A stretch of 64,000 bases of DNA from Citrobacter farmeri (GTDB taxonomy: Bacteria; Pseudomonadota; Gammaproteobacteria; Enterobacterales; Enterobacteriaceae). Below, in pieces: positions 8,895 through 31,505 of this stretch. The notes under the pieces are model-generated. The model had not been told where the DNA came from, did no database searches, and was given only the letters and a program-made list of their open reading frames with translations. Each line of letters opens with the position of its first letter. The first letter of the stretch is position 1. The position numbers were made by a program, and so were the translations under genes. The stretch is taken from the NCBI RefSeq assembly GCF_019048065.1, contig NZ_CP077291.1, positions 3,162,001 to 3,226,000 of the forward strand. Reading direction: 5' to 3'.

Positions 8895-10174
8895 CATGAC
8901 TCCTTGCTCATCGCATGAAGACTCCGAGAGTGACCCCGTTAGAAAGGGTCACACGCATGCCCCAATACAAATTTATTTGTGCACTCTCACCGTTACTGTT
9001 TTCCTGGAGAAGGAAACAGAAAGGGCGAAAGGTTACAAACATGTTAATAAAAAACTCAAATTGATCCCGCAATTATATTACGCCGCAAAATCCTTACAAT
9101 AAACAGGTTTTTATTGAGGAAGATTTGCATTTTTCGACAGTGATCAATTTATAGCGAATTTATCATCTTTCCACCAATTTGATCGGCGACAATTTATCGT
9201 GTTTCGCATCCTTTTTCCAACGTTTAAACATTGATTTAAATCAAAAACAGTGCTTTTTGTTAATCATGTTTAATTTTAGTATTTGTAGTGAAAAACATGT
9301 TGCCAACATGTGTCTTTGCGGGTAGGAATGGTTACCAGATGAAAATGTATATATAAAAAGACAGTGTTTAAATTAACGCGGTAGCGGCATTTTCCGTAGC
9401 CCTGGCCCGATCAATTTAGCGTAGTCAATTTTCGGCTATTTTCCAGAGGTGAAGAGTTCACACGTCATTATTCACAATTATTTTACTTTTAAGGAGAAAT
9501 GAATTAACACCGCATTGTTATTATTCCGTTAACAATAAGATGACACCGTACGCAGCACCGATCTGTTTGCTGATTATTCCGCCAGATATGTCCCGGCCTG
9601 TTCAGAATGTTGGCGAAGAATCGTTCACTCCTCCCCGGTATGAACTCCCCCTTTGTCAGTCCACTCACCCCATCAATTTTATGATGATACGTTTGCGGAA
9701 CACTTACCGAAAACGGTAAGAGGTGACCAGAAGGCAACACGGGTTGACTGGAATGGCGTACAGCTTAATTGAATAATACAAACGCACTCAGAACAAATTA
9801 TTAGCCTTTTATTAACAGTTATTTTTATGTCTATATTAAGGGGGCAGTTAATTCCGTTATCTATCTCACATTTCTTCTTCTGAAGTTATTTAAACGCCCT
9901 TTTCGTTCAAAGACAAATAAACAGGACTCAGATCACAAACATGAAACTCCGTTTAATAGACTCCTCGTCATTAAAATATTACCCATGTAAAGATTTAATT
10001 ATAACATTATGAAAGTAAAGGTTTTTTAATTTTCATTCGCAGAACAGTCGTTTTTCGAATGATATTCTGAAAATAGATCAATTGCATCATCACCCCTGCC
10101 CCACGACACTCCGTTCCTATTAAAACATTGCAAAACATTTTATTTCTTACCCTGAGTCCTGGAGAGGATTACCC
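8895..10174. other. 1.28-kb noncoding region between cydA and glmS
   Basis: Both flanking genes point away from this AT-rich stretch. The cydA side (8895 to about 9400) is the cyd regulatory region. The rest has no gene I can support. It contains a good Shine-Dalgarno (AAGGAG, 9491-9496) followed by ATG-AAT-TAA (9499-9507), which looks like the start of a lost gene or a chance match. It also has a clean hairpin at 9703-9720 (CTTACCG, loop AAAA, CGGTAAG). The minus-strand frame 9504-9740 gives a Cys/Arg-rich peptide that I do not recognise and do not call. The glmS promoter must lie near the right end, but I found no convincing -35/-10 pair. Confidence 0.6.
9231..9274 (-). promoter_or_regulatory. 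FNR site and ArcA-like repeats upstream of cydA
   Basis: TTGATTTAAATCAA at 9231-9244 is a perfect FNR half-site pair (TTGAT-N4-ATCAA). Its centre is about 343 nt before the cydA start, close to where I recall an FNR site in the E. coli cyd promoter. Next to it, TGTTAAT (9258-9264) and TGTTTAAT (9267-9274) resemble ArcA direct repeats. FNR represses and ArcA-P activates cyd in E. coli; the same logic is inferred here. Confidence 0.7.
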
Positions 10175-10624: not shown

Positions 10625-12012
10625 TGCAAACCGTCTCTGTCGATATCGGCTCGACGTGGACCAAAGCAGCCCTCTTCGCAAAGGAGGGGGATGCGTTAAC
10701 GCTGGTTAACCACGTTCTGACTCCGACGACGACCCATCATCTGGCGGATGGTTTTTTCGCCAGCCTGAACCAGGTGCTGAACGTTGCCGATGCGCGCCCA
10801 CTGCTCAAGCGCGGTGAAGTGACACTGAAATACTCCTCGTCGGCAAAAGGCGGCCTTGCCGTCGCCGCAATGGGACTGGTGCCGTCGATCACCCTGGAAT
10901 CGGCAAAAGTCACGGCGCATTCCGCCGGGGCAAAAATCGCCCAGTACTATTCGTACAAGCTGAATCGCCATGATATTCAGGCGCTGGAGGCCTCGCCGCC
11001 GGACATTCTGCTGTTTACCGGTGGTACCGACGGTGGCGAAGAGAGCTACGGCCTGGCCAACGCGCATGCGCTGGCGGAGTCCAGCCTCGACTGCGCCATT
11101 ATCTACGCCGGAAACCGTGACATTCAGGACGATGTTCAGGCGATTCTGGGACACAAAGATCTGACCACGGTAGACAATATTCTGCCCGATCTCGATCACC
11201 CGAATCCCTTCGCCGCCCGCAAAGCGATTTGTGATGTCTTTCTGTCCCGCATCGTGAAAGGCAAAGGACTGGATGTGATTGTCGGTGAAACCGGCGAAGA
11301 ACCCATGCCGACGCCCTGGACGGTGTACGAACTGGTGAAAGCCATCAGCGAAGTCGATAGCGCATGGAGAGAGTTCATGCTCATCGACATGGGCGGTGCG
11401 ACCACCGACGTCTATTCCGCCAGTGCCAATACCCTCTCGCCCGACACCGTGCTTCACGGCGTCCCGGAGCCGTTCGTTAAGCGCACCGTGGAAGGCGATC
11501 TCGGCATGCGCGTCTCCGCTGTGGTGGTGGGCGAAAGCACCCAGGAACTGGTGAAGGTGGTATTCGCTCAGCAACCGGCTCGCCAGGAGGCCTTCTATGG
11601 CTACCTGCGCTATCTGGTAACGCATCCCGATTATCTGCCGCAGAGCGAGGAAGAGAAATACTTTGACTCTCTGTTAGCCGGGCTGTGCGTTGGTTACGCC
11701 GCCGAGCGTCACGCAGGCACCAAAAAGCAGGTTTGTACCTGCGTTGGCAATGTCGATTTACAGATGGGGCGCGACCTGACCACCGTACGCAAAGTGGTTG
11801 GCTCGGGTGGCTGGCTCTCCCGCGCCAGTCAGTTTGATATCCATCGCTGGCTCAAATATCGCGAACTGGACAACGACGGCAGACGCATTCTTTTACCCAC
11901 TCAGTTTGAGTACTACCGCGATGCAAAGGGTCTGCTTCCGCTGCTGGCAAACGTTGCCAGACTGGATCCCCAGGCCGCTGCGCGCACCAGCATTCACTGT
12001 TTAACCCTATAA
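10624..12012 (+). CDS. glmL: GlmL/MutL, glutamate mutase-associated ASKHA ATPase
   Basis: MutL-family protein encoded between the two mutase subunits, thought to reactivate or protect the B12 enzyme by ATP-driven cofactor exchange; this role is inferred for the family. The actin/Hsp70-like phosphate loops are visible: VSVDIGSTWTKAALF at the N-terminus and LIDMGGATTDVYS near residue 260. I start at ATG 10624 (MQTVSVDIGS), giving 462 aa. The frame is open 7 codons upstream but only inside glmS, and the TGATG overlap signals coupling. It is not the DNA mismatch-repair protein MutL. Confidence 0.92.
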   Translation: MQTVSVDIGSTWTKAALFAKEGDALTLVNHVLTPTTTHHLADGFFASLNQVLNVADARPLLKRGEVTLKYSSSAKGGLAVAAMGLVPSITLESAKVTAHSAGAKIAQYYSYKLNRHDIQALEASPPDILLFTGGTDGGEESYGLANAHALAESSLDCAIIYAGNRDIQDDVQAILGHKDLTTVDNILPDLDHPNPFAARKAICDVFLSRIVKGKGLDVIVGETGEEPMPTPWTVYELVKAISEVDSAWREFMLIDMGGATTDVYSASANTLSPDTVLHGVPEPFVKRTVEGDLGMRVSAVVVGESTQELVKVVFAQQPARQEAFYGYLRYLVTHPDYLPQSEEEKYFDSLLAGLCVGYAAERHAGTKKQVCTCVGNVDLQMGRDLTTVRKVVGSGGWLSRASQFDIHRWLKYRELDNDGRRILLPTQFEYYRDAKGLLPLLANVARLDPQAAARTSIHCLTL

Positions 12013-22706: not shown

Positions 22707-23486
22707 ATGAAAAATTCTGGAAAAGTCTGGCTGGTTGGCGCAGGTCCTGGTGATATCACCTTACTGACCCTCAAAGCCCTGCAGTGCATTCAACAGGCTG
22801 ATGTCATTATTTACGATCGGTTGGTCAACCCCAAAATACTTGAGTGGTGCTCAACACACTGTACCTGTATCAACGTTGGCAAAAGTCCGGGCTATCATTG
22901 CGTCCCTCAGGAGGAGATCAATGCCCTGCTTATCCGGCATGCGCAGACGCATCGGAATATTGTCCGTCTGAAAGGCGGCGATCCTTACGTGTTTGGTCGC
23001 GGCGCCGAAGAAGTGGAGTGTCTGGTGGAGGAAGGTATTGCCTTTGAAGTGGTGCCAGGCATCAGTTCCGCCATTGGCGGACTAGCCTGTGCCGGGATCC
23101 CGGTCACCCACCGCGACCTGGCATCAGGTTTTCATGTGGTGACAGGACATACCCGCGAAGGCAATCAGCAGCAGGACTGGCGGCAGCTTGCGAAGCTCAA
23201 TGGCACGCTGGTAATTGTCATGGGGATCGCGAATCTGCCGTTTATCTGCGAAGAGTTACTGATGGGCGGCAAATCGCCGGACACGCCCGCCGCTATTGTG
23301 ATGTCGGCTACCCGGGAAAATCAGCGGCGCTTAACCTGTACGCTCGGTACATTGCTCACGAAAGCGCAGGAAGCGAATATTGTGCCGCCAGCGCTGATTG
23401 TGGTCGGCGACGTTGTGCGTCTGAGCGACCGACTTTCTTTTATTCCTGAGGTGATGGAACGCGACTACAGCGAAAGCTGTTCGTGA
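22707..23486 (+). CDS. cobA: Uroporphyrinogen-III C-methyltransferase (stand-alone SUMT)
   Basis: 259-aa SAM-dependent enzyme that methylates uroporphyrinogen III at C2 and C7 to precorrin-2, the branch point to cobalamin and sirohaem. SUMT motifs are VWLVGAGPGD at the N-terminus, RLKGGDPYVFGRGAEE (about 89-104) and VVPGISSAIGGLACAGIPVTHR. It lacks the dehydrogenase/ferrochelatase half found in CysG, so it is dedicated to the methylation step. Placement beside an adenosyltransferase, a PocR-like regulator and a B12 enzyme points to B12 supply. Its 3' end overlaps the converging regulator gene by 22 nt. Confidence 0.94.
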   Translation: MKNSGKVWLVGAGPGDITLLTLKALQCIQQADVIIYDRLVNPKILEWCSTHCTCINVGKSPGYHCVPQEEINALLIRHAQTHRNIVRLKGGDPYVFGRGAEEVECLVEEGIAFEVVPGISSAIGGLACAGIPVTHRDLASGFHVVTGHTREGNQQQDWRQLAKLNGTLVIVMGIANLPFICEELLMGGKSPDTPAAIVMSATRENQRRLTCTLGTLLTKAQEANIVPPALIVVGDVVRLSDRLSFIPEVMERDYSESCS

Positions 23487-24358
23487 CGGAATGACTGCGG
23501 AGAGGTCTGGTGAGCCGCCCGGAATACCCGACAAAAGTAGCTGGTCTGCGCATACTGAAGTTTCCGGGCGATGCTATCGATAGAGTTCGTCGGGTCGCAC
23601 AGTAACTCGCTCGCCCGCTGCATTTTTTTCTGACTTACCCAGGTTTTAAAATTCACGCCCTGCCGTTTCTTAAAGAAACGGCTAAAGTAGTTAGCACTTA
23701 AACAGACATGTGCAGCGACTGACTCCAGCGTCAGTTCCTCGTATAAATGCTCATCGATATAACGCAATGCGGCGACCAGTTTCTTTTCGTGACGCGAAAG
23801 CTCCATTGCCGATAAGCGCAGGTCGCTCAGCTGCACATCGGCATTGCTCTGCGTGGTACTTTGAACCGGATTGATGTTATTAATAATAAAACTAAGCAGG
23901 TTTGCTGCTGCCACCAGATGATTATTTTCAACAATCGCCACCTGATTCCAGGCTGATTTAATTTTGGGATCCAAAACCCACTGCCGATCGTCATCAATGA
24001 CAATAGTTTTATATTCCGGATATTTCGCGCGCACCTGACCACATATAATAAACCCCAGCAGATGCCCCTGGCGAATTAACGGCATAGAGAAAAAACTCAA
24101 TCCCGCATGACAGCAGAGTATTCTGATTTTTTCTTCTTTCAGCCCTTCAAAAGCGCAATATTTATCACATTTCTGACAACTTTTTTGATATCGCGGATCG
24201 GTACGCAGTAATGAACAGAAAGAATTAAAATTATGACAGGCGGAGATTTCCCGACCATTAATGTCCACCACCACGGCAGCGAGCCCTGTCGCCTTAGAAA
24301 ACACCTCTGCCAGTGAGTAATAAGTGTGTAAGACATCGTCCTGAATATGCTGAGGCAC
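23465..24358 (-). CDS. PocR-like AraC-family regulator
   Basis: 297-aa regulator with the same layout as Salmonella PocR, which activates cob and pdu genes. The N-terminal PocR sensory domain (about 10-165) contains FSKATGLAAVVVDINGREIS, a cluster of cysteines (CQKCDKYC, then CCHAGL) and GFIICGQVRA. The C-terminal part has two AraC helix-turn-helix motifs (VAAHVCLSANYFSRFFKKR and SIARKLQYAQTSYFCRVFR). I use the GTG at 24358, which has GGAG 6 nt upstream; a 26-codon extension would need a TTG start without a good site. It likely controls the nearby B12 and glutamate mutase genes or the divergent operon. The effector is unknown. Confidence 0.9.
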   Translation of the reverse strand: MPQHIQDDVLHTYYSLAEVFSKATGLAAVVVDINGREISACHNFNSFCSLLRTDPRYQKSCQKCDKYCAFEGLKEEKIRILCCHAGLSFFSMPLIRQGHLLGFIICGQVRAKYPEYKTIVIDDDRQWVLDPKIKSAWNQVAIVENNHLVAAANLLSFIINNINPVQSTTQSNADVQLSDLRLSAMELSRHEKKLVAALRYIDEHLYEELTLESVAAHVCLSANYFSRFFKKRQGVNFKTWVSQKKMQRASELLCDPTNSIDSIARKLQYAQTSYFCRVFRAAHQTSPQSFRHEQLSL

Positions 24359-24420
24359 GTTACGCTCCGCCCGTGGTCTGGATAACGTTGCTAATATGCA
24401 AAATTTATCCGAGGGAAATA

Positions 24421-24543
24421 ATGACCCTGACCGCAAAAAATAATCTCATTTATTCAGGTGATTATGATCAAATAGCAAGAGCGGCGCGCCCTCTCCTCAA
24501 ACCCGGTACTACCGCTGTTGTGACAACATTTCCCAAAGATTAA
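24421..24543 (+). CDS. Possible 40-aa small protein or truncated gene start
   Basis: A 40-codon frame starts at ATG 24421 behind a plausible ribosome-binding site (GAGGG, 5 nt) and ends in TAA. The peptide begins MTLTAKNNLIYSGDYDQIA, continues with RAARPLLKPGTTAVVTTF and ends in PKD. Its composition looks like ordinary folded protein rather than random AT-rich DNA. I do not recognise it. It lies between the divergent PocR-like gene and the acid-sugar operon, so it may be a small protein, a leader peptide, or what is left of a truncated gene. Confidence 0.4.
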   Translation: MTLTAKNNLIYSGDYDQIARAARPLLKPGTTAVVTTFPKD

Positions 24544-24730
24544 CGAATCTTCACATTCTCTTGTGAGCCCTGTTTTAATCGGGAATATCATTTTATTTAT
24601 CAATTTCAATAAATTATAGAAAATTCATACGATTTTATGATGTGCTTATTTGTGAGAATCATCATGTGAATGTGAAACGCCCTCCTGAATAATAAGCTCA
24701 ATGACCAGACAATCTGAACGGAGTGGATGT

Positions 24731-25996
24731 ATGCCCGTCACGACAGGTGTTATCGCCGACGACTTTACTGGCGCAACGGATATAGCAAGTTTTATGGCTG
24801 AGCAAGGCTGGCGGGTCGCGCTGCTGCCCGGAATGCCAGACGCCGCGCAGCCGTGGAATGAGGAGGTCGACGCGATTGTCATCTCGCTTAAAAGCCGTTC
24901 TCTGCCGGCTGACCAGGCCATCGATCAATCATTACGCTGCTGGCAATGGTTACACAACGCCGCAGGTGCCCAGCAGATTTACTTTAAATATTGCTCCACC
25001 TTTGATTCTACCCCTGCCGGCAACATCGGTCCGGTCAGCGATGCGCTGATGGAAGCGATGCACATGCCGTACATCGTTCACTGCCCGGCCCTGCCGCAAA
25101 ACGGGCGAACGGTGATCCACAGTCATCTGTTTGTGAATGGCGTATTGTTGAACGAATCCGGCATGGAGAAACATCCGCTCAATCCGATGACCGACGCAAA
25201 CCTGATTCGCCTGCTAGCGGCGCAAACCACCAGCCCCGTCGGACGTATCGACCTCAGCACGATTCAGAAAGGTGTGGAAGCGGTCACTCACGCGCTGGAG
25301 CGCTGTCAGTCTGAAGGCATACGCCATGTGATCGTGGATACGTTCAATGAAGCCGATCTGCAGACTCTCGCTCAGGCCTTGCGTCATACGCCACTGTTGG
25401 CGGGTGGTTCCGGACTGGGCGGCGCACTGGCCGCATGCGCCACCCCGCAGCGTGGGCAGGCGGCGACACCTCCTTTCCCGACGCCTGCAAAAACGGTGGT
25501 CTTTTCCGGAAGCTGTTCCACCATGAGCAACCGCCAGGTCAATCGCTACAAAGCGCAGGCCGCGTCCCGTTTGCTCGACGTGGCACGCTGCCTGGCAGAC
25601 GCCGAGGGTTACAGCGACGAGCTGTCGCTGTGGGCAATGACGCATGTCGATGACGCGCTCGCTCCGCTGATTTACGCCACCCAGCCGCCGGAAGCGCTGA
25701 AACGCATTCAACAGGAGTACGGCGAACAGCATGCCAGCCGGGCGATTGAAGATACCTTTGCCAGACTGACGGCCAAACTGCAGGCCGCAGGTGTGAACGG
25801 TTTTATCGTCGCAGGCGGCGAAACGTCCGGCACCGTCGTGGAGGCGTTACAGGTGACGCGGCTGACGGTCGGAAAGGCCATCGCCCCTGGCGTCCCCTGG
25901 GTATTTTCCGCCGAGCCGCCGCTCGCGCTGGCACTGAAGTCAGGCAACTTCGGTGACGAAGACTTCTTTTTTACCGCGCAGGAGTACGCATCATGA
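24731..25996 (+). CDS. otnK: DUF1537 four-carbon acid sugar kinase (OtnK/YgbK family)
   Basis: 421-aa kinase related to E. coli YgbK; characterised members phosphorylate 3-oxo-tetronate using ATP in the threonate/erythronate pathways. The N-terminal motif GVIADDFTGATDIASFM and FKYCSTFDSTPAGNIGPV bind substrate. The C-terminal nucleotide-binding part has VFSGSCSTMSNRQV and IVAGGETSGTVVEAL, and a C-terminal LALKSGNFGDEDFF. I start at ATG 24731 (MPVTTGV), with GGAG 7 nt upstream; an ATG 10 codons earlier lacks one. A TGTGA-N6-TCATG sequence at 24651-24666 could be a weak CRP site. It overlaps otnC by 4 nt. Confidence 0.92.
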   Translation: MPVTTGVIADDFTGATDIASFMAEQGWRVALLPGMPDAAQPWNEEVDAIVISLKSRSLPADQAIDQSLRCWQWLHNAAGAQQIYFKYCSTFDSTPAGNIGPVSDALMEAMHMPYIVHCPALPQNGRTVIHSHLFVNGVLLNESGMEKHPLNPMTDANLIRLLAAQTTSPVGRIDLSTIQKGVEAVTHALERCQSEGIRHVIVDTFNEADLQTLAQALRHTPLLAGGSGLGGALAACATPQRGQAATPPFPTPAKTVVFSGSCSTMSNRQVNRYKAQAASRLLDVARCLADAEGYSDELSLWAMTHVDDALAPLIYATQPPEALKRIQQEYGEQHASRAIEDTFARLTAKLQAAGVNGFIVAGGETSGTVVEALQVTRLTVGKAIAPGVPWVFSAEPPLALALKSGNFGDEDFFFTAQEYAS

Positions 25997-26637
25997 ACCC
26001 GCTTAACGAACAGCAACTCCGCGAACAGCTGGTGCATTATGGCCGCTCTCTGTTTATGCGCGGCTTCAGCAGCGGCGGTTCAGGCAATCTGAGCGTACGG
26101 CTGCCGGACGGCGGCTATCTGGTCACGCCGACCAACTCCTGCCTGGGCGAGCTGGACGCCGCTACGCTCAGTAAACTGGATGCCAACGGCAGTCATCTGA
26201 GTGGCGATAAACCATCAAAAGAGGTGCCAATGCACCTGGCCTGGTACCGTCATCGTCCGACCTGCGGCGCGGTGGTCCATCTGCATTCGCCGTGGCTGAC
26301 CGCCCTTTCCTGTCTGCCGTGCAGCACACCGGAAAACTGTCTGCCGCCGTTAACGCCGTACTACGTGATGCGCGTCGGACAGTTGCCTCTGCTGCCCTAT
26401 TTCAAACCCGGTCATGAAGGCATCGCCCGTGCGCTAAGCGAGATTGCGGCCGACCATACCGCCGCGCTCCTCGCCAATCACGGCCCGGTAGTCAGTGGTC
26501 GCTCACTACGCGAAGCGGTGTTTAATGCCGAAGAGCTGGAAGATAGCGCCCGCATCTGGCTGACCTTAAAACCCCTCGGCTACGTGCCGCTGACAGCAGA
26601 AGCGGTGGCCGAACTTCAGTCATCCCGGCGAGCGTGA
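25993..26637 (+). CDS. otnC: 3-oxo-tetronate 4-phosphate decarboxylase (OtnC/YgbL, class II aldolase family)
   Basis: 214-aa zinc-dependent class II aldolase-like enzyme. Relatives decarboxylate 3-oxo-tetronate 4-phosphate to dihydroxyacetone phosphate, the step after OtnK. Visible metal and catalytic residues include Glu77 (PSKEVPMHLA), His96 and His98 (VVHLHSPW), and a later His in LLANHGPVVSG. The start overlaps the kinase stop by 4 nt (ATGA). The regulator gene follows 8 nt later. The substrate is inferred from the family and neighbour. Confidence 0.92.
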   Translation: MNPLNEQQLREQLVHYGRSLFMRGFSSGGSGNLSVRLPDGGYLVTPTNSCLGELDAATLSKLDANGSHLSGDKPSKEVPMHLAWYRHRPTCGAVVHLHSPWLTALSCLPCSTPENCLPPLTPYYVMRVGQLPLLPYFKPGHEGIARALSEIAADHTAALLANHGPVVSGRSLREAVFNAEELEDSARIWLTLKPLGYVPLTAEAVAELQSSRRA

Positions 26638-26645
26638 GGTGAATG

Positions 26646-27452
26646 ATGATCCCTGAACAACGACGTGATTTTATCTACCGCTACGTACATGAAAAAAGCG
26701 TTGCCTCGTTTAATGAGCTGGCGGATCTGATGAGCGTATCGCACATGACCGTGCGCCGCGATATTCAGTTGCTGGAAGAAGAAGGCAAAGTCATCTCGAT
26801 TAATGGCGGGGTGAAACTCAACAATCTGCTGAAATCAGAGCTACCGTGGCGGGAAAAAGCCGAACTGCATCATGAGGTAAAGCGGCGGATGGGACAGCTT
26901 GCCGCGATGCTGATCGAGCCTGGGCAAACGCTGTATCTGGATGCCGGTACCTCACTGTTTGAAGTGGCGAAAGCGGTCGCCGCCAGCCACTGCTTCAACC
27001 TGACGGTGGTGACGAACGATTTTTCCATCAGCCACTACCTGATGGACATGCCGCACATCACGCTGTATCACACCGGAGGTCTGGTGGATCAGCGCAACCG
27101 CTCCTGTCTCGGGAAAAGCGCCGCCAGTTTTCTGCGCACAATTAACATCGACGTGGCGTTTCTCAGCTCGTCCTCGTGGGATACCGAACGCGGTATGTCG
27201 ACCCCCAGCGAGGGCAAGGCCTCGGTGAAAGAGGCCGTGCTTACCGTCTCCCGCCGTCGGGTACTGGTCTGCGACAGCAGTAAATTTGGCAAGTACGGGA
27301 TGTTCCACATCTGTTCGCTGGATCAACTGACCGACATTATTTCGGATAACCAGTTGCCCGATGTGGCGCAGGACACCATTGCCAGCCAGGGCGTGAAACT
27401 ACACCTGGTTGATTGCCGGGAAGGAACGCACCATGCTGAAGTTAGCGGCTAA
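26646..27452 (+). CDS. DeoR-family transcriptional regulator (YgbI-like)
   Basis: 268-aa DeoR-type repressor. The N-terminal winged helix (about 1-55) contains SFNELADLMSVSHMTVRRDIQLLEEEGK; the C-terminal DeoR sensor domain has YLDAGTSLFEVAKA, VVTNDFSI, HTGGLVDQRNRSCLG and the closing VLVCDSSKFGKYG, typical for binding phosphorylated sugars or sugar acids. Of two tandem ATGs, the second (26646) is better spaced from GAGG. It lies inside the operon and overlaps otnI by 20 nt, so it is probably autoregulated together with the pathway. Confidence 0.92.
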   Translation: MIPEQRRDFIYRYVHEKSVASFNELADLMSVSHMTVRRDIQLLEEEGKVISINGGVKLNNLLKSELPWREKAELHHEVKRRMGQLAAMLIEPGQTLYLDAGTSLFEVAKAVAASHCFNLTVVTNDFSISHYLMDMPHITLYHTGGLVDQRNRSCLGKSAASFLRTINIDVAFLSSSSWDTERGMSTPSEGKASVKEAVLTVSRRRVLVCDSSKFGKYGMFHICSLDQLTDIISDNQLPDVAQDTIASQGVKLHLVDCREGTHHAEVSG

Positions 27453-28209
27453 CCTCGACTGGCTGTTTTGTGAACACCCCATTGCCGGGCGCTTCCAGGC
27501 AGCAAAGGCGGCGGGTTTCCACGGCGTTGAAGGGCTGTTTCTCTGGCAGCATCCGCTGGACGTTCTATTGGCCGCGCAGCGGGAAACCGGCTTACCTGTA
27601 GCGCTGATGAATGCGCCTGCGGGTAACTGGCAGGCGGGTGAACGGGGGCTGGCATCCCTGCCAGACCGTGATGAGGAATTTCATCGCAGTCTGATGATTG
27701 CCCACAATTACGCTACGGCGTTGGGCTGTCGCAAGGTGCACGTCATGGCCGGACTGCGCGCGGACAACCTTTCCGCCTGCGCCCAACGCGAACGGTTGAC
27801 CGACCGACTGCGTATCGCCTGTGACGTCATGGTCGAGGTCGGCATCGACGTGTTGATTGAACCATTAAACCCTGAAGATATGCCTGGTTATTTCGTCGAC
27901 AGTTTTCCATTAGCCGAAAGTCTGATTAACGAAGTGGCCAGGAAAAATATCGGCTTACAATTTGATATTTATCACTGTCAAAAAATACACGGTAATGTTG
28001 CGCATCTTATTGAGCGTTACTTGCCCATAATTAAACATTTTCAGATTGCTTCCGTACCCGGCCGCCATGAACCAGGAACGGGTGAATTAAATGAAACATG
28101 GCTTTTTAATTTTATTAAACAGACAGGTTATCAGGGCTGGATGGGTTGTGAATATAAACCATCAACACCAGGGCCAGAATCGTTACGCTGGATGACACCG
28201 TACTTATAA
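27433..28209 (+). CDS. otnI: 2-oxo-tetronate isomerase / hydroxypyruvate isomerase family (OtnI/YgbM)
   Basis: 258-aa TIM-barrel isomerase of the AP-endonuclease-2/xylose isomerase superfamily. E. coli OtnI (YgbM) interconverts 2-oxo- and 3-oxo-tetronate. Likely metal and catalytic residues are Glu143 (LIEPLNP), Asp178 and His181 (QFDIYHCQK), and Glu240 (GCEYKPS). I start at ATG 27433 (MLKLAANLDW), behind AAGGAACGCACC; the longer frame begins inside the regulator. The 3' third has lower GC content than its neighbours. It overlaps deoR by 20 nt and is followed by the BKACE gene after 36 nt. Confidence 0.9.
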   Translation: MLKLAANLDWLFCEHPIAGRFQAAKAAGFHGVEGLFLWQHPLDVLLAAQRETGLPVALMNAPAGNWQAGERGLASLPDRDEEFHRSLMIAHNYATALGCRKVHVMAGLRADNLSACAQRERLTDRLRIACDVMVEVGIDVLIEPLNPEDMPGYFVDSFPLAESLINEVARKNIGLQFDIYHCQKIHGNVAHLIERYLPIIKHFQIASVPGRHEPGTGELNETWLFNFIKQTGYQGWMGCEYKPSTPGPESLRWMTPYL

Positions 28210-28245
28210 TTTTAATATCTCTGTACCGGAAAACCGGAGGAACAC

Positions 28246-29055
28246 ATGTCGGATACTGTTATTATCTCGCTGGCACCCGTTGCCGCGGATTGCCCCAGAG
28301 TTATACCCGAAGAACTGGCGCAGGAAATACTGGCCAGCGTCGAACATGGTGCGGCAATAGTACATTTACACGTTCGCGATAAGCAGGGTCGCCTGACGCC
28401 AGACACCACAGATTTTCAGGCGACGATCGACCACGTCATGCGCCATTCCGACCTGATTATTCAGGCTTCTACCGGTGGCGTCTCCTCCATGTCGATTGCC
28501 GAGCGCTGCGCGCCATTGGACTGTCCTGGCGTTGAAATGGCATCGCTGAACGTCGGCTCCGTTAACCTTGGTGATGCCGTGTACTTTAATCCCGGACCGG
28601 ACGTCGAATATTGTTCCCGACAAATTACTCAGCGTTCAATTATTCCTGAATTCGAAGTCTTTGAAATAGGGATGATTAATAATATCCTCGCGCTGGAAGA
28701 AAAAATTCAGTTCAAAAAACCCATGCTATTTAATATTGTCCTCGGGCATCGCGGGAGTACACCGGCGACGGTTGATGCACTAATTGCCTTACGGAGTATG
28801 ATTCCACGCGATGCCTTGTGGGGAATTACGCATTTTGGCCGCAAGAACTTCGATATTATTGCGGCTGCGGTCGGGATGGGGGCCAGTGAAGTAAGAATTG
28901 GTTTTGAAGACAGCTATTATTTAAGTGCCGAAGAGAAAGCTCAGCATAATTATCAGCAGGTTGCCAAACTCGCCACGCTTATTCGCAGTATGGATAAAAA
29001 AGTCGCCACGCCGGGTATTGCGCGGCAAATGTTAGCTATTCCACCACGGCAGTAA
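28246..29055 (+). CDS. BKACE family protein (DUF849, beta-keto acid cleavage enzyme)
   Basis: 269-aa TIM-barrel zinc enzyme. Characterised BKACE members condense a beta-keto acid with acetyl-CoA and split it into acetoacetate and a new CoA ester. The zinc site HxH is at His40 and His42 with Arg44 nearby (IVHLHVRD); the third ligand is Glu221 (RIGFEDS). QASTGGVSSMS and LGHRGSTPAT correspond to substrate loops. Translation uses CCGGAGGAACAC before ATG 28246. A BKACE beside otn genes is unusual. 3-Oxo-tetronate is itself a beta-keto acid, so it could compete with the kinase for that intermediate, or act on another substrate (inference). Confidence 0.9.
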   Translation: MSDTVIISLAPVAADCPRVIPEELAQEILASVEHGAAIVHLHVRDKQGRLTPDTTDFQATIDHVMRHSDLIIQASTGGVSSMSIAERCAPLDCPGVEMASLNVGSVNLGDAVYFNPGPDVEYCSRQITQRSIIPEFEVFEIGMINNILALEEKIQFKKPMLFNIVLGHRGSTPATVDALIALRSMIPRDALWGITHFGRKNFDIIAAAVGMGASEVRIGFEDSYYLSAEEKAQHNYQQVAKLATLIRSMDKKVATPGIARQMLAIPPRQ

Positions 29056-29079
29056 TAACGAGAGAAAGGACATTTCATC

Positions 29080-30426
29080 ATGACTATCACGACCGTTATT
29101 CACAAAACCGGACTGGGCGTTTGCATCGCTGGTGGCGCACTGGCGGCAATTGGCGCGCTGATGCAGTCTCCCGACCTTTGGCAGCCGGGGCTGGTGATGC
29201 TGACAGCAGGCTTCGCGGCGGGCGCGGGCTATTGGCCTGGTCTTCGCAGCTATCAGTTTACCCTGTGGATCATCGCCGGCTTTGTCGCTGCGATGACCTG
29301 GTCAACCGATCTGATCGTCTGGGGCGGATTCAACATCACCCATAAGTGGATCGTCTTTTTAGTGATCCAGGCGACCATGTTCAGTATGGGCACCAAACTC
29401 ACAATTCAGGATTTTATCGACGTTGCCAAAATGCCCTGGGCGGTGTTTATCGGCACCTTCTGCCATTTCGTCATCATGCCTCTGCTCGGCCTGAGCATCA
29501 CGCTGATCTTTGACTTCCCGCCAGAGGTGGCGGTGGGCATTCTGCTGATTGGTTCCTGCCCCAGCGGGCTCTCCTCGACTGTGATGGTGTATATCGCCAA
29601 CGCCAACCTGGCGCTGGCGGTCTCAATCGCTGCTGTCTCGACGCTGGCGGCAACGGTGATGACGCCGCTGTGGGTGAATCTGCTGGCCGGTTCAATGATC
29701 GACATCCAGCTCACGGCGATGGTAATGGACGTGGTGAAAATCGTGCTGATCCCGATTGGCGCAGCCATTTTGCACGACTACCTGAAAACCTATGCCGGGG
29801 TACAGGGACGTCGAACTGTGCAAATTCTGGCCGGAGTCAGCGCCGTCTGGCTGCTGTATATGATTGCCGGCGGCTGGGACACCTTGTTTGGCAGCGCCAG
29901 CGCCGACGCGCAAATGTACGCGGTTGTGCTGAACTTTGTGGCGGGCGGGATTATCTGGGCGCTGTTCTACAACTGGCTGTACAGCCGCGTGGACGGCGTT
30001 AAGAAAGTCATGCCGACCATCTCGATGATGGGCATCATTTTCTTCACCACCACCGCGGCCGCCGCCGGGCGCGAAAACCTGGTGCAGGTCGGTTTCCTGC
30101 TCTGCTTCGCCATGCTGATGCACAACCTCGGTGGCTTCCTGATTGGTTATCTGATGAGCCGTTGGATCTTCCGCATGGATGTCCAGTCAGCGCGTACCGT
30201 GGCCTTCGAAGTCGGGCTGCAAAACGGCGGTATGGCGTCAGGTCTTGCTGCCGCGATGGGCAAACTGGCGACCGTCGGTCTCGCCTCTGCGGTCATGACG
30301 CCGCTTGGCAACGTCAGCGGCTCGCTGCTGGCTAACTACTGGCGCAAAAAAGATGCCCGACAAGCGCAGGCGCTGAGCGAGAACACGCCTGCTCAGCCGG
30401 TATCAGAACCTCTGTCAAAAGGATAA
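29080..30426 (+). CDS. Bile acid:sodium symporter (BASS) family transporter
   Basis: 448-aa membrane protein with about ten hydrophobic segments. The signature GSCPSGLSSTVMVYIANANLAL is typical of the BASS family, and the C-terminal half repeats the fold (FEVGLQNGGMASGLAAA), matching the inverted-repeat crossover helices of these symporters. The first 80 residues form an added hydrophobic region. BASS proteins carry organic acids such as bile acids, pantoate and pyruvate with Na+. Here it probably imports the acid substrate of the operon (inference). It starts 24 nt after the BKACE gene with AGAAAGGACA upstream. Confidence 0.9.
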   Translation: MTITTVIHKTGLGVCIAGGALAAIGALMQSPDLWQPGLVMLTAGFAAGAGYWPGLRSYQFTLWIIAGFVAAMTWSTDLIVWGGFNITHKWIVFLVIQATMFSMGTKLTIQDFIDVAKMPWAVFIGTFCHFVIMPLLGLSITLIFDFPPEVAVGILLIGSCPSGLSSTVMVYIANANLALAVSIAAVSTLAATVMTPLWVNLLAGSMIDIQLTAMVMDVVKIVLIPIGAAILHDYLKTYAGVQGRRTVQILAGVSAVWLLYMIAGGWDTLFGSASADAQMYAVVLNFVAGGIIWALFYNWLYSRVDGVKKVMPTISMMGIIFFTTTAAAAGRENLVQVGFLLCFAMLMHNLGGFLIGYLMSRWIFRMDVQSARTVAFEVGLQNGGMASGLAAAMGKLATVGLASAVMTPLGNVSGSLLANYWRKKDARQAQALSENTPAQPVSEPLSKG

Positions 30427-30432
30427 CTAACA

Positions 30433-30852
30433 ATGATGACCTTAACTCTGGAACAGGCGCGACGCGCGGTGGACTGTGCGATCGATCTCGCTGACACCCG
30501 TTATACGCAACGTCCGCTCAGCGTGGCTGTGTGTGACGCCAACGGTGAGTTACTGAGCTTTGCCCGTATGGATAATGCCAAACTGTTAACCATTGAGCTG
30601 ACACAGCGCAAAGCCCGCACCAGCAGTCGGCTAGGCTGTACCACACAGGCGTTTTTACAGCGGCTGCAAAAAGAGTCGCTGGATATCAGCTACTTTGCTG
30701 ACCCACGTTTTACCGCGCTACCTGGCGGCGTCCCGATTCTTCACAACGGTAAATGTCTGGGGGCCGTCGCGGTGGGCGGACTGTCCGCGCAGGAAGATCA
30801 CGATGCGGCTATGGCCGTTGCCGAATGTTTGCTCAAGGAGATCGCAGAATGA
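30433..30852 (+). CDS. GlcG/HbpS family small protein
   Basis: 139-aa protein of the DUF336 (GlcG/HbpS-like) family. The pattern ALDLADTRY-like N-terminus, VAVCDANGELLSFARMDNA, and the closing PGGVPILHNGKCLGAVAVGGLSAQEDHDAA is characteristic. The family includes haem-binding HbpS and proteins of unknown function in organic-acid operons. No signal peptide is present. Two ATG codons (30433 and 30436) are possible; AAGGA lies 9 nt from the first. The stop overlaps the next gene by 4 nt. Its job here is unknown. Confidence 0.88.
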   Translation: MMTLTLEQARRAVDCAIDLADTRYTQRPLSVAVCDANGELLSFARMDNAKLLTIELTQRKARTSSRLGCTTQAFLQRLQKESLDISYFADPRFTALPGGVPILHNGKCLGAVAVGGLSAQEDHDAAMAVAECLLKEIAE

Positions 30853-31505
30853 AAAAGATCGCTATGCTTCACACCAGCTCCGCCACGCTCGCCATGATGC
30901 AGCAGCTGATCGGGGACATCATGCCAGAGGCGGAAGTGATGCACCTCGTCGAAGAGTCGATGATCAAACAGGTGATGAAAGCCGGGGGCGTTACGCCAGA
31001 CATTGCGGCACGCATTGCCGACTATGTTCGCATTGCCGAAAAAGCAGACTGTGAGATTTTCATCACCGCCTGCTCGTCCATTGGCACGGCGGTTGAGCAG
31101 TGCCAGTTTATGACGCCGCTGCAACTTGCCCGTATCGACTGCGCGATGGTGGAAAAAGCCATTAGCCTGGGTGAGAACATTGCCGTCCTGGCCACCGTCG
31201 CCACGACGATGAAACCGACGCTGGAGTATGTACAGCGCAAAATACAGGCCAGCGGTAAGCTATGCTCGGTGACGCCGATATTGATGGAAGAGGCCTTCCA
31301 CGCCCTGCTGGCGGGTGATATGGAAACCCACGACCGCATCGTCAGTGAAGGATTGCACAGTGCGTATAAACAGGCCGATGTCGTGATGCTGGCACAGGCG
31401 TCGATGGCGCGCGTTCTGCAACAGCTTCCTCCTCCGCCCGTCCCGGTGATGACCTCGCCGGAAAGCGGTATCCGCTGGCTGAAAACGCTGGCCGTAAGCG
31501 AGTGA
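30849..31505 (+). CDS. Asp/Glu/hydantoin racemase-like protein with one catalytic cysteine
   Basis: 218-aa protein of the aspartate/glutamate racemase superfamily. The first catalytic cysteine is present at Cys75 (FITACSSIG). The place where two-base racemases carry the second cysteine reads LAQASMAR, with Ala183. The enzyme may therefore be a one-cysteine relative such as a decarboxylase or isomerase rather than a racemase. I start at ATG 30849, which overlaps the upstream stop (ATGA); a longer frame runs through the GlcG-like gene. It is the last gene of the operon and is followed by a BIME. Confidence 0.85.
   Translation: MKKIAMLHTSSATLAMMQQLIGDIMPEAEVMHLVEESMIKQVMKAGGVTPDIAARIADYVRIAEKADCEIFITACSSIGTAVEQCQFMTPLQLARIDCAMVEKAISLGENIAVLATVATTMKPTLEYVQRKIQASGKLCSVTPILMEEAFHALLAGDMETHDRIVSEGLHSAYKQADVVMLAQASMARVLQQLPPPPVPVMTSPESGIRWLKTLAVSE

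Follow-up and report, generated by a model that had tools for sequence, protein, structure and literature searches.

The tetronate pathway, which runs through LtnD or DenD, OtnI, OtnK and OtnC, ends in dihydroxyacetone phosphate (DHAP) and is known from the ygbIJKLM type of E. coli and from aldolase-DUF1537 clusters of Ralstonia and Brucella. According to PMC10580937, the Brucella set comprises ltnD, otnK, otnI, denD and otnC together with a DeoR regulator. Here, we analyse an operon at 24731-31505 on the plus strand of a 64,000-nucleotide stretch of the Citrobacter farmeri genome (assembly GCF_019048065.1, contig NZ_CP077291.1, positions 3,162,001 to 3,226,000; in the following, the window is this whole stretch). 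The operon resembles the tetronate pathway in its DeoR regulator, its OtnI-type isomerase and its kinase and decarboxylase equivalogs. It differs in that the genome has no LtnD or DenD over cut-off, that OtnI has diverged and that genes for a beta-keto acid cleavage enzyme (BKACE), a BASS-family transporter, a DUF336 (GlcG-like) protein and a racemase-like protein (Rac) are present instead.

The window BKACE has the fold, metal ligands and catalytic residues of Kce, the 3-keto-5-aminohexanoate cleavage enzyme. Unlike Kce, it carries two histidines that are invariant in its subfamily, it has acid-sugar kinases and glycosidases as partners, and we propose that it acts as an aldolase. In PMC6365646, a BKACE is proposed to cleave a hydroxylated 3-keto sugar acid during deoxyribonate oxidation. 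An SDR dehydrogenase and a glycerate kinase, both of which belong to that route, are absent from the operon. Furthermore, the GH127 enzyme BT1003 is described as a hydrolase of aceric acid (3-C-carboxy-5-deoxy-L-xylose) in PMC10850190 and PMC5698469, the latter of which names rhamnogalacturonan II (RG-II). A partner gene of clostridial BKACEs resembles this enzyme; unlike in the BT1003 system, the clostridial GH127 is linked or fused to a kinase, and the gammaproteobacteria would import the free acid. Based on sequence comparisons, we propose that the operon serves to take up free aceric acid and to break it down to DHAP, BKACE being the retro-aldolase, a reading for which we see the balance as even.

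Tetronate-type genes and the missing dehydrogenase

The first-pass annotation had described eight tightly packed plus-strand genes forming one operon. All eight open reading frames (ORFs) were confirmed, with intergenic gaps of -4, +5, -20, +36, +24, +6 and -4 bases, and Pfam assignments agree with this description (Table 1). It had also matched the first four genes to the tetronate pathway, which holds for their families and for two of the four at the level of curated NCBIfam models. The kinase passes the 3-oxo-tetronate kinase model (NF043035, 529 bits, cut-off 350) and the decarboxylase passes the 3-oxo-tetronate 4-phosphate decarboxylase model (NF043034, 299 bits, cut-off 250), whereas the isomerase remains under the cut-off of the 2-oxo-tetronate isomerase model (NF043033, 292 bits, cut-off 325) and the DeoR protein under that of the YgbI-type model (261 bits, cut-off 400). 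The source genome contains a second DUF1537 gene, a D-threonate kinase next to a D-threonate 4-phosphate dehydrogenase (L115, G000:C1:3790000-3804000). Both are over cut-off, and a KdgT-like transporter and a DeoR regulator are also found there. We rejected this locus as part of the operon, as it belongs to the different D-threonate pathway.

No threonate-type dehydrogenase over cut-off was found in the genome. The best match to the L-threonate dehydrogenase (LtnD) model reaches 211 bits (cut-off 350), and this model is passed by an E. coli control genome. For the D-erythronate dehydrogenase (DenD) model, the best match has 57 bits (cut-off 325), a negative without a positive control since no control genome passes that model. 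Among 146 relatives, LtnD over cut-off occurs in 15, that is, in 0 of the 10 genomes with the operon (BKACE of at least 70% identity with adjoining DeoR, OtnI and BASS genes) and in 15 of the 136 others, a sample too small to claim exclusion. Against the tetronate isomerase model, the OtnI proteins of these 10 operon genomes score 268-338 bits, compared to 359-406 bits in the 15 genomes bearing LtnD.

For a wider comparison, we kept 80 of 210 confirmed loci from a search with a BKACE alignment, including 22 gammaproteobacterial loci (L023-L044) and 58 others. Within the stretches at hand, none of the 22 related loci has an adjoining threonate-type dehydrogenase, in agreement with the earlier call that this enzyme is missing. 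Using the source genome's four 3-hydroxyisobutyrate-type dehydrogenases and three SDR-type matches as queries, we found a dehydrogenase-like protein in only two of the 80 loci, again within the stretches at hand (L070 and L089).

The BKACE and racemase-like core in other genomes

The eight-gene order is intact in 21 of the 22 gammaproteobacterial loci, which stem from Citrobacter, Klebsiella, E. coli, Trabulsiella, Enterobacter, Enterobacillus, Atlantibacter, Edaphovirga, Yersinia, Gilliamella, Budvicia and Winslowiella. The exception is a Winslowiella locus (L036) without OtnK, OtnC and OtnI. Overall, these three genes are combined with BKACE and Rac in at least four layouts. In addition to the window order, we observed a TRAP transporter followed by OtnK, OtnC, OtnI, BKACE, GlcG and Rac (L048); OtnK, OtnC, OtnI, Rac, TRAP and BKACE in Succinivibrionaceae (L071 and L096); and OtnK, OtnC, OtnI and DeoR divergent from TRAP, GlcG, Rac and BKACE (L120). 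The variety of layouts argues against a chance neighbourhood, and a BKACE half that is separate from the tetronate genes, as the first-pass annotation had considered, does not fit these combinations. Distant BKACEs of the relatives (L014-L022, 22-36% identity) have no such partner genes within 1.5 kb.

The core is conserved across phyla, with the racemase-like gene accompanying BKACE in 73 of the 80 loci and a DUF1537 kinase present in 66 (OtnK in 24, a second clade in 39 and a GH127 fusion in 3). When only the 58 loci outside the gammaproteobacterial set are considered, Rac is present in 51 and a kinase in 45 (39 second clade, 3 GH127-fused, 3 OtnK). A member-by-member domain scan recovered both kinase domains in all 42 second-clade and GH127-fused kinases. 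The scores of two second-clade representatives lie far under the DUF1537 equivalog cut-offs, and a profile of 16 of its sequences gave no PDB match.

Of the 80 loci, 23 have a GH127 gene within 10 kb; all 23 belong to the non-gammaproteobacterial set, and the GH127 domains were confirmed in each. The order Rac, GH127, kinase, BKACE is observed in 16 of these 23, once as a fusion and in some cases with an intervening gene. Three loci encode GH127 and DUF1537 as a single protein of 1114-1118 residues with GH127 first (L079:6600-9941, L080:6614-9955 and L092:6602-9955), and in L084 a single protein of 747 residues consists of DUF1537 followed by BKACE. Thus, BKACE and Rac occur without OtnK, OtnC and OtnI and are then associated with a glycosidase and a different DUF1537 kinase; they therefore more likely act upstream and produce oxo-tetronate. 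The earlier suggestion that BKACE converts 3-oxo-tetronate to a CoA ester and acetoacetate finds no support in this distribution.

It could be argued that Gammaproteobacteria apply the shared BKACE and racemase core to another acid, for instance a branched or C4-C5 acid, and that they recruited OtnK, OtnC and OtnI separately. Sequence identities to the window are moderate, the kinase clade and the transporter differ, and on the BKACE tree the presence of OtnK, OtnC and OtnI requires at least four changes (gains or losses), with some long-branch joins flagged as unsafe. However, the OtnK-type loci L071 and L096 group with Sporomusaceae (L094 and L097) and Lachnoclostridium at a node of 100/99, so that OtnK and the second kinase clade are exchanged within one well-supported BKACE lineage. 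Furthermore, the same Sporomusaceae loci join BASS and GlcG genes as in the window with the second kinase clade. We thus consider a different gammaproteobacterial acid unlikely.

Some loci show further peculiarities. In the L086 genome, the GH127 match is part of a 1203-residue open frame, perhaps a fourth fusion. In L065 (1080-2629), L067 and L088, the Rac-BKACE pair adjoins a transaldolase-family gene; no DUF1537 kinase is seen in these stretches, and a 5mqo-type GH127 (see below) is located elsewhere in the genome. In Sporomusa acidovorans (L089), the ORFs show only the C-terminal half of DUF1537 and only the N-terminal half of an F_bP_aldolase-family gene (kinase and F_bP_aldolase pieces at 10798-11448 and 9279-9734).

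GH127, entry systems and the proposed aceric acid route

The GH127 partner provides the clue to the substrate. A profile of 17 clostridial-type GH127s matches PDB entry 5mqo best by a wide margin (688 bits versus 426 for the next entry), as does one GH127 sequence alone (514 versus 321). We take 5mqo to be BT1003; the code itself was not found in any paper examined. L-arabinose as the GH127 product was rejected, as an acid-sugar kinase would then not be needed. Genes of RG-II type are also found among the 58 non-enterobacterial loci, where domains were checked for all members: GH42 in 10, GH78 in 11, an apiosidase-like gene in 5 and GH106 in 4. A fucose-isomerase-like protein (weak match), transketolase halves and an FGGY kinase each occur in 4 loci and presumably constitute an apiose pathway. 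Chain B of RG-II is Gal-AceA-Rha-Api, which the clostridial set of pectin hydrolases and apiose-type genes would dismantle. Oxidative apionate chemistry of the OiaK type was rejected for the operon, as the window kinase reaches only 132 bits at a cut-off of 700 and the clostridial apiose-type genes are a separate set.

We grouped the 79 genomes carrying the 80 loci by their content of transporter genes and of a family termed c32 within 10 kb, and searched them for GH127. A strong 5mqo-type GH127 is present in 34 of the 79. Of these, 33 have a match above 800 bits (21 and 12 in two sets of 48 and 31 genomes), and in the remaining one (G212) the match is divided between two contigs, with pieces of 576 and 320 bits. 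No other genome has a match above 327 bits. Strong GH127s are distributed unevenly, with 0 of 22 in the gammaproteobacterial BASS group, 0 of 15 among other genomes with TRAP or BASS, 0 of 7 with c32 and 34 of 35 in the rest. In 37 of the 79 genomes, acid-importer genes are the only entry genes nearby, and none of these 37 has a strong GH127. DctM, DctP and SBF domains were confirmed for the members outside the window group, and L045, L064, L087 and L095 each showed a single TRAP part. In the 22 gammaproteobacterial relatives searched, the window's own genome not among them, no 5mqo-type GH127 was found.

The c32 family (about 584 residues) stands in for GH127 in seven loci (L049:6006-7727, L055, L061, L062, L069:6760-8511, L076 and L090). 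Two members tried gave no Pfam match and one gave no PDB match; its homologues include proteins annotated as GH127 or containing PF07944, which suggests that c32 is a new, distantly GH127-like hydrolase subfamily. Within 10 kb, c32 occurs in 7 and GH127 in 23 of 52 loci, with both in none (Fisher one-sided p 0.012). Due to this near-exclusion of GH127, c32 and acid importers, almost all genomes seem to rely on a single route of entry, either a hydrolase or an acid importer, and the window type is the importer form.

Aceric acid, an acid sugar from RG-II (a domain of pectin), can be written from its name as OHC-CHOH-C(OH)(COOH)-CHOH-CH3. With this as the substrate, we infer the reactions and their order as follows. 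The BASS protein would take up the free acid, and the racemase-fold protein, OtnI or both would shift the carbonyl from C1 to C2, yielding the beta-keto acid HOCH2-CO-C(OH)(COO-)-CHOH-CH3. With this substrate on its metal, BKACE would cleave the C3-C4 bond in a retro-aldol reaction to acetaldehyde and 3-oxo-tetronate; the enolate would be metal-bound as in the known BKACE reaction, but formed by loss of acetaldehyde instead of a proton. OtnK would then phosphorylate 3-oxo-tetronate, and decarboxylation by OtnC would give DHAP. In Clostridia, GH127 would free aceric acid from imported pectin fragments and feed the same core, with the second DUF1537 clade as the kinase, which may act ahead of the cleavage.

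The equation balances (C6H10O6 to C2H4O and C4H6O5). Aceric acid is already an aldehyde, hence no dehydrogenase is needed, and the product of the C3-C4 split, HOCH2-CO-CHOH-COOH, is 3-oxo-tetronate, the OtnK substrate, so that an oxidation-free route would explain the missing dehydrogenase. The earlier idea that the operon starts from an already oxidised acid or runs an undescribed branch is consistent with these results. No account of aceric acid degradation by bacteria was found in the literature surveyed, which consisted of titles, the beginnings of abstracts and passages of the RG-II papers PMC12282258 and PMC12168206.

Another RG-II acid, 3-deoxy-lyxo-heptulosarate (Dha), could also lead to the OtnK substrate, if an aldol cleavage to pyruvate and a tetruronate were followed by isomerisation to 3-oxo-tetronate. 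Its equation balances as well and the RG-II-like context is shared; yet GH127 is linked to aceric acid instead, Dha is an alpha-keto and not a beta-keto acid, and no pyruvate aldolase family is among the scanned partner genes, although no search was aimed at such families. We regard Dha as a very unlikely substrate.

The predicted structures bear on the proposed chemistry. The window BKACE model (pLDDT 95.7) has the BKACE fold, with Kce as the best PDB match at about 30% identity. Residues H40, H42, E221, S75, S100 (Thr in Kce), E137, R217 and D222 are kept in 80 of 80 alignment rows, with the L084 fusion outside these rows; we assume for them the roles of catalytic residues and Zn ligands from the structure work on Kce. 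H168 and H196 are invariant in all 80 rows as well, whereas two aligned PDB BKACEs have V and G, or L and G, at these positions. Both histidines lie at or just beyond strand ends in the model and may be part of the active site. The model also matches cis-epoxysuccinate hydrolase and ObcA, and the superfamily thus has further chemistries besides the BKACE reaction.

The same enzyme could instead perform the canonical reaction, in which an imported beta-keto acid is cleaved with acetyl-CoA, yielding acetoacetate and a CoA ester, either alongside the tetronate steps or following them. Two observations conflict with this: fusions of kinase with BKACE and of GH127 with kinase are easier to reconcile with a sugar acid than with a CoA ester, and the two invariant histidines are not shared by the aligned PDB BKACEs. 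In addition, no CoA-transferase or thiolase is among the scanned recurrent partners, with no search aimed at either. We find a canonical reaction quite unlikely, even though every catalytic residue of Kce is kept, the best fold matches are acetyl-CoA-dependent BKACEs and the proposal for deoxyribonate (PMC6365646) involves cleavage of a hydroxylated 3-keto acid.

For the proposed isomerisation of aceric acid, Rac and OtnI are two candidate sugar-acid isomerases. In a Foldseek comparison, the fold of Rac corresponds to that of aspartate and glutamate racemases (E 2.2e-8; TM-score 0.79, normalised to the query length). C75 is kept in 74 of 74 rows, and Gln183 takes the place of the second cysteine, a position that we assign by motif, so that the protein does not have two catalytic cysteines. 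A single base would suit a 1,2-proton shift better than racemisation. The predicted importer has an SBF domain and matches BASS transporters in the PDB, and TRAP genes occupy its place in other loci.

Several observations weigh against a route for aceric acid. BKACE retains the residues of the canonical acetyl-CoA-dependent enzyme. Clostridial proteins share only 48-54% (BKACE) and 24-33% (Rac) identity with those of the window, and Rac was not seen in 7 of the 80 loci, some of which are short stretches. Among the 58 other loci, just 4 have an OtnC-like protein, and 3 of these are OtnK loci, which leaves the decarboxylation step in Clostridia unexplained. Several extra genes are unexplained: Sporomusaceae carry an F_bP_aldolase-family gene, three loci have a transaldolase-type gene, and L070 encodes a tartronate semialdehyde reductase (GarR) with a homologue in L089. 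The fucose-isomerase-like match falls under its curated cut-off. The OtnI proteins of L039, L040, L044 and L048 pass the cut-off of 325 bits (4 of 10 further BKACE-linked loci scanned). Lastly, the L053 genome shows no entry system, and one genome (G180, with L077 and L085) has both GH127 and TRAP.

Operon context and implications

The operon lies in an assembly of 4.96 Mb in 2 contigs that is rated 100% complete, and the nearest named BKACE is that of Citrobacter sedlakii (98%).

Table 1. Genes of the operon and their positions in the window
Feature	Position	Strand	Evidence
OtnK-type DUF1537 kinase	24731..25996	+	Pfam SBD_N + NBD_C; NCBIfam NF043035
OtnC-type decarboxylase, class II aldolase fold	25993..26637	+	Pfam Aldolase_II; NF043034
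DeoR-family regulator, YgbI-like	26643..27452	+	Pfam DeoR; under YgbI family cut-off
OtnI-like isomerase, diverged	27433..28209	+	Pfam AP_endonuc_2 (OtnI type); NF043033 under cut-off
BKACE-family protein	28246..29055	+	Pfam BKACE; Kce-equivalent residues; structure model
BASS-family importer (predicted)	29080..30426	+	Pfam SBF; PDB BASS transporters
HbpS/GlcG-like (DUF336) protein	30433..30852	+	Pfam HbpS-like; distant to EfgA 6bws
Asp/Glu-racemase-fold protein, one catalytic Cys	30849..31505	+	Pfam Asp_Glu_race; C75, Q183

The kinase start codon (ATG at 24731) is preceded by GGAGTGG, and an alternative in-frame start is located at 24701. A consensus scan found no promoter- or terminator-like site in the 36 bases between OtnI and BKACE. 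The G+C content is 46-47% across 27900-29099 (the end of OtnI and BKACE), compared to 57-61% in the remaining operon-internal bins.

Upstream of the operon and divergent from it lies a gene for a PocR-like AraC regulator (23465-24436, minus strand), which adjoins a uroporphyrinogen-III methyltransferase-like gene called by eye (22707-23486, plus strand). Both recur in Citrobacter loci, and the PocR-like gene is also found in Klebsiella and Atlantibacter loci; in L023, it is split into three ORFs.

A plasmid search with the operon DNA gave no match, and a plasmid search for BKACE gave 549 records, every one below 60% identity. In E. coli genomes, the sole match to the window DNA is 43 bases long, lies beyond the operon end and occurs in 7 genomes; the operon as found in L033 is present in 21 of 5426 complete E. 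coli genomes. The parts of PMC12482172 at hand contain nothing on this operon.

Taken together, the operon may represent a first bacterial route for aceric acid, with a metal-dependent retro-aldolase of the BKACE fold, a one-cysteine isomerase and oxidation-free DUF1537 chemistry. This route would exist in a polymer-fed form, with GH127 or a distant GH127-like hydrolase that is sometimes fused to the kinase, and in a scavenger form with an importer of the free acid. We put forward this wider claim tentatively, as its chances are somewhat short of even. If it is true, enzymes could be named for aceric acid, a rare sugar from a plant polysaccharide of great complexity, and the BKACE fold would have a new reaction type. 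Citrobacter, Klebsiella, some E. coli and the bee-gut bacterium Gilliamella may then feed on the acid that pectin degraders leave behind.

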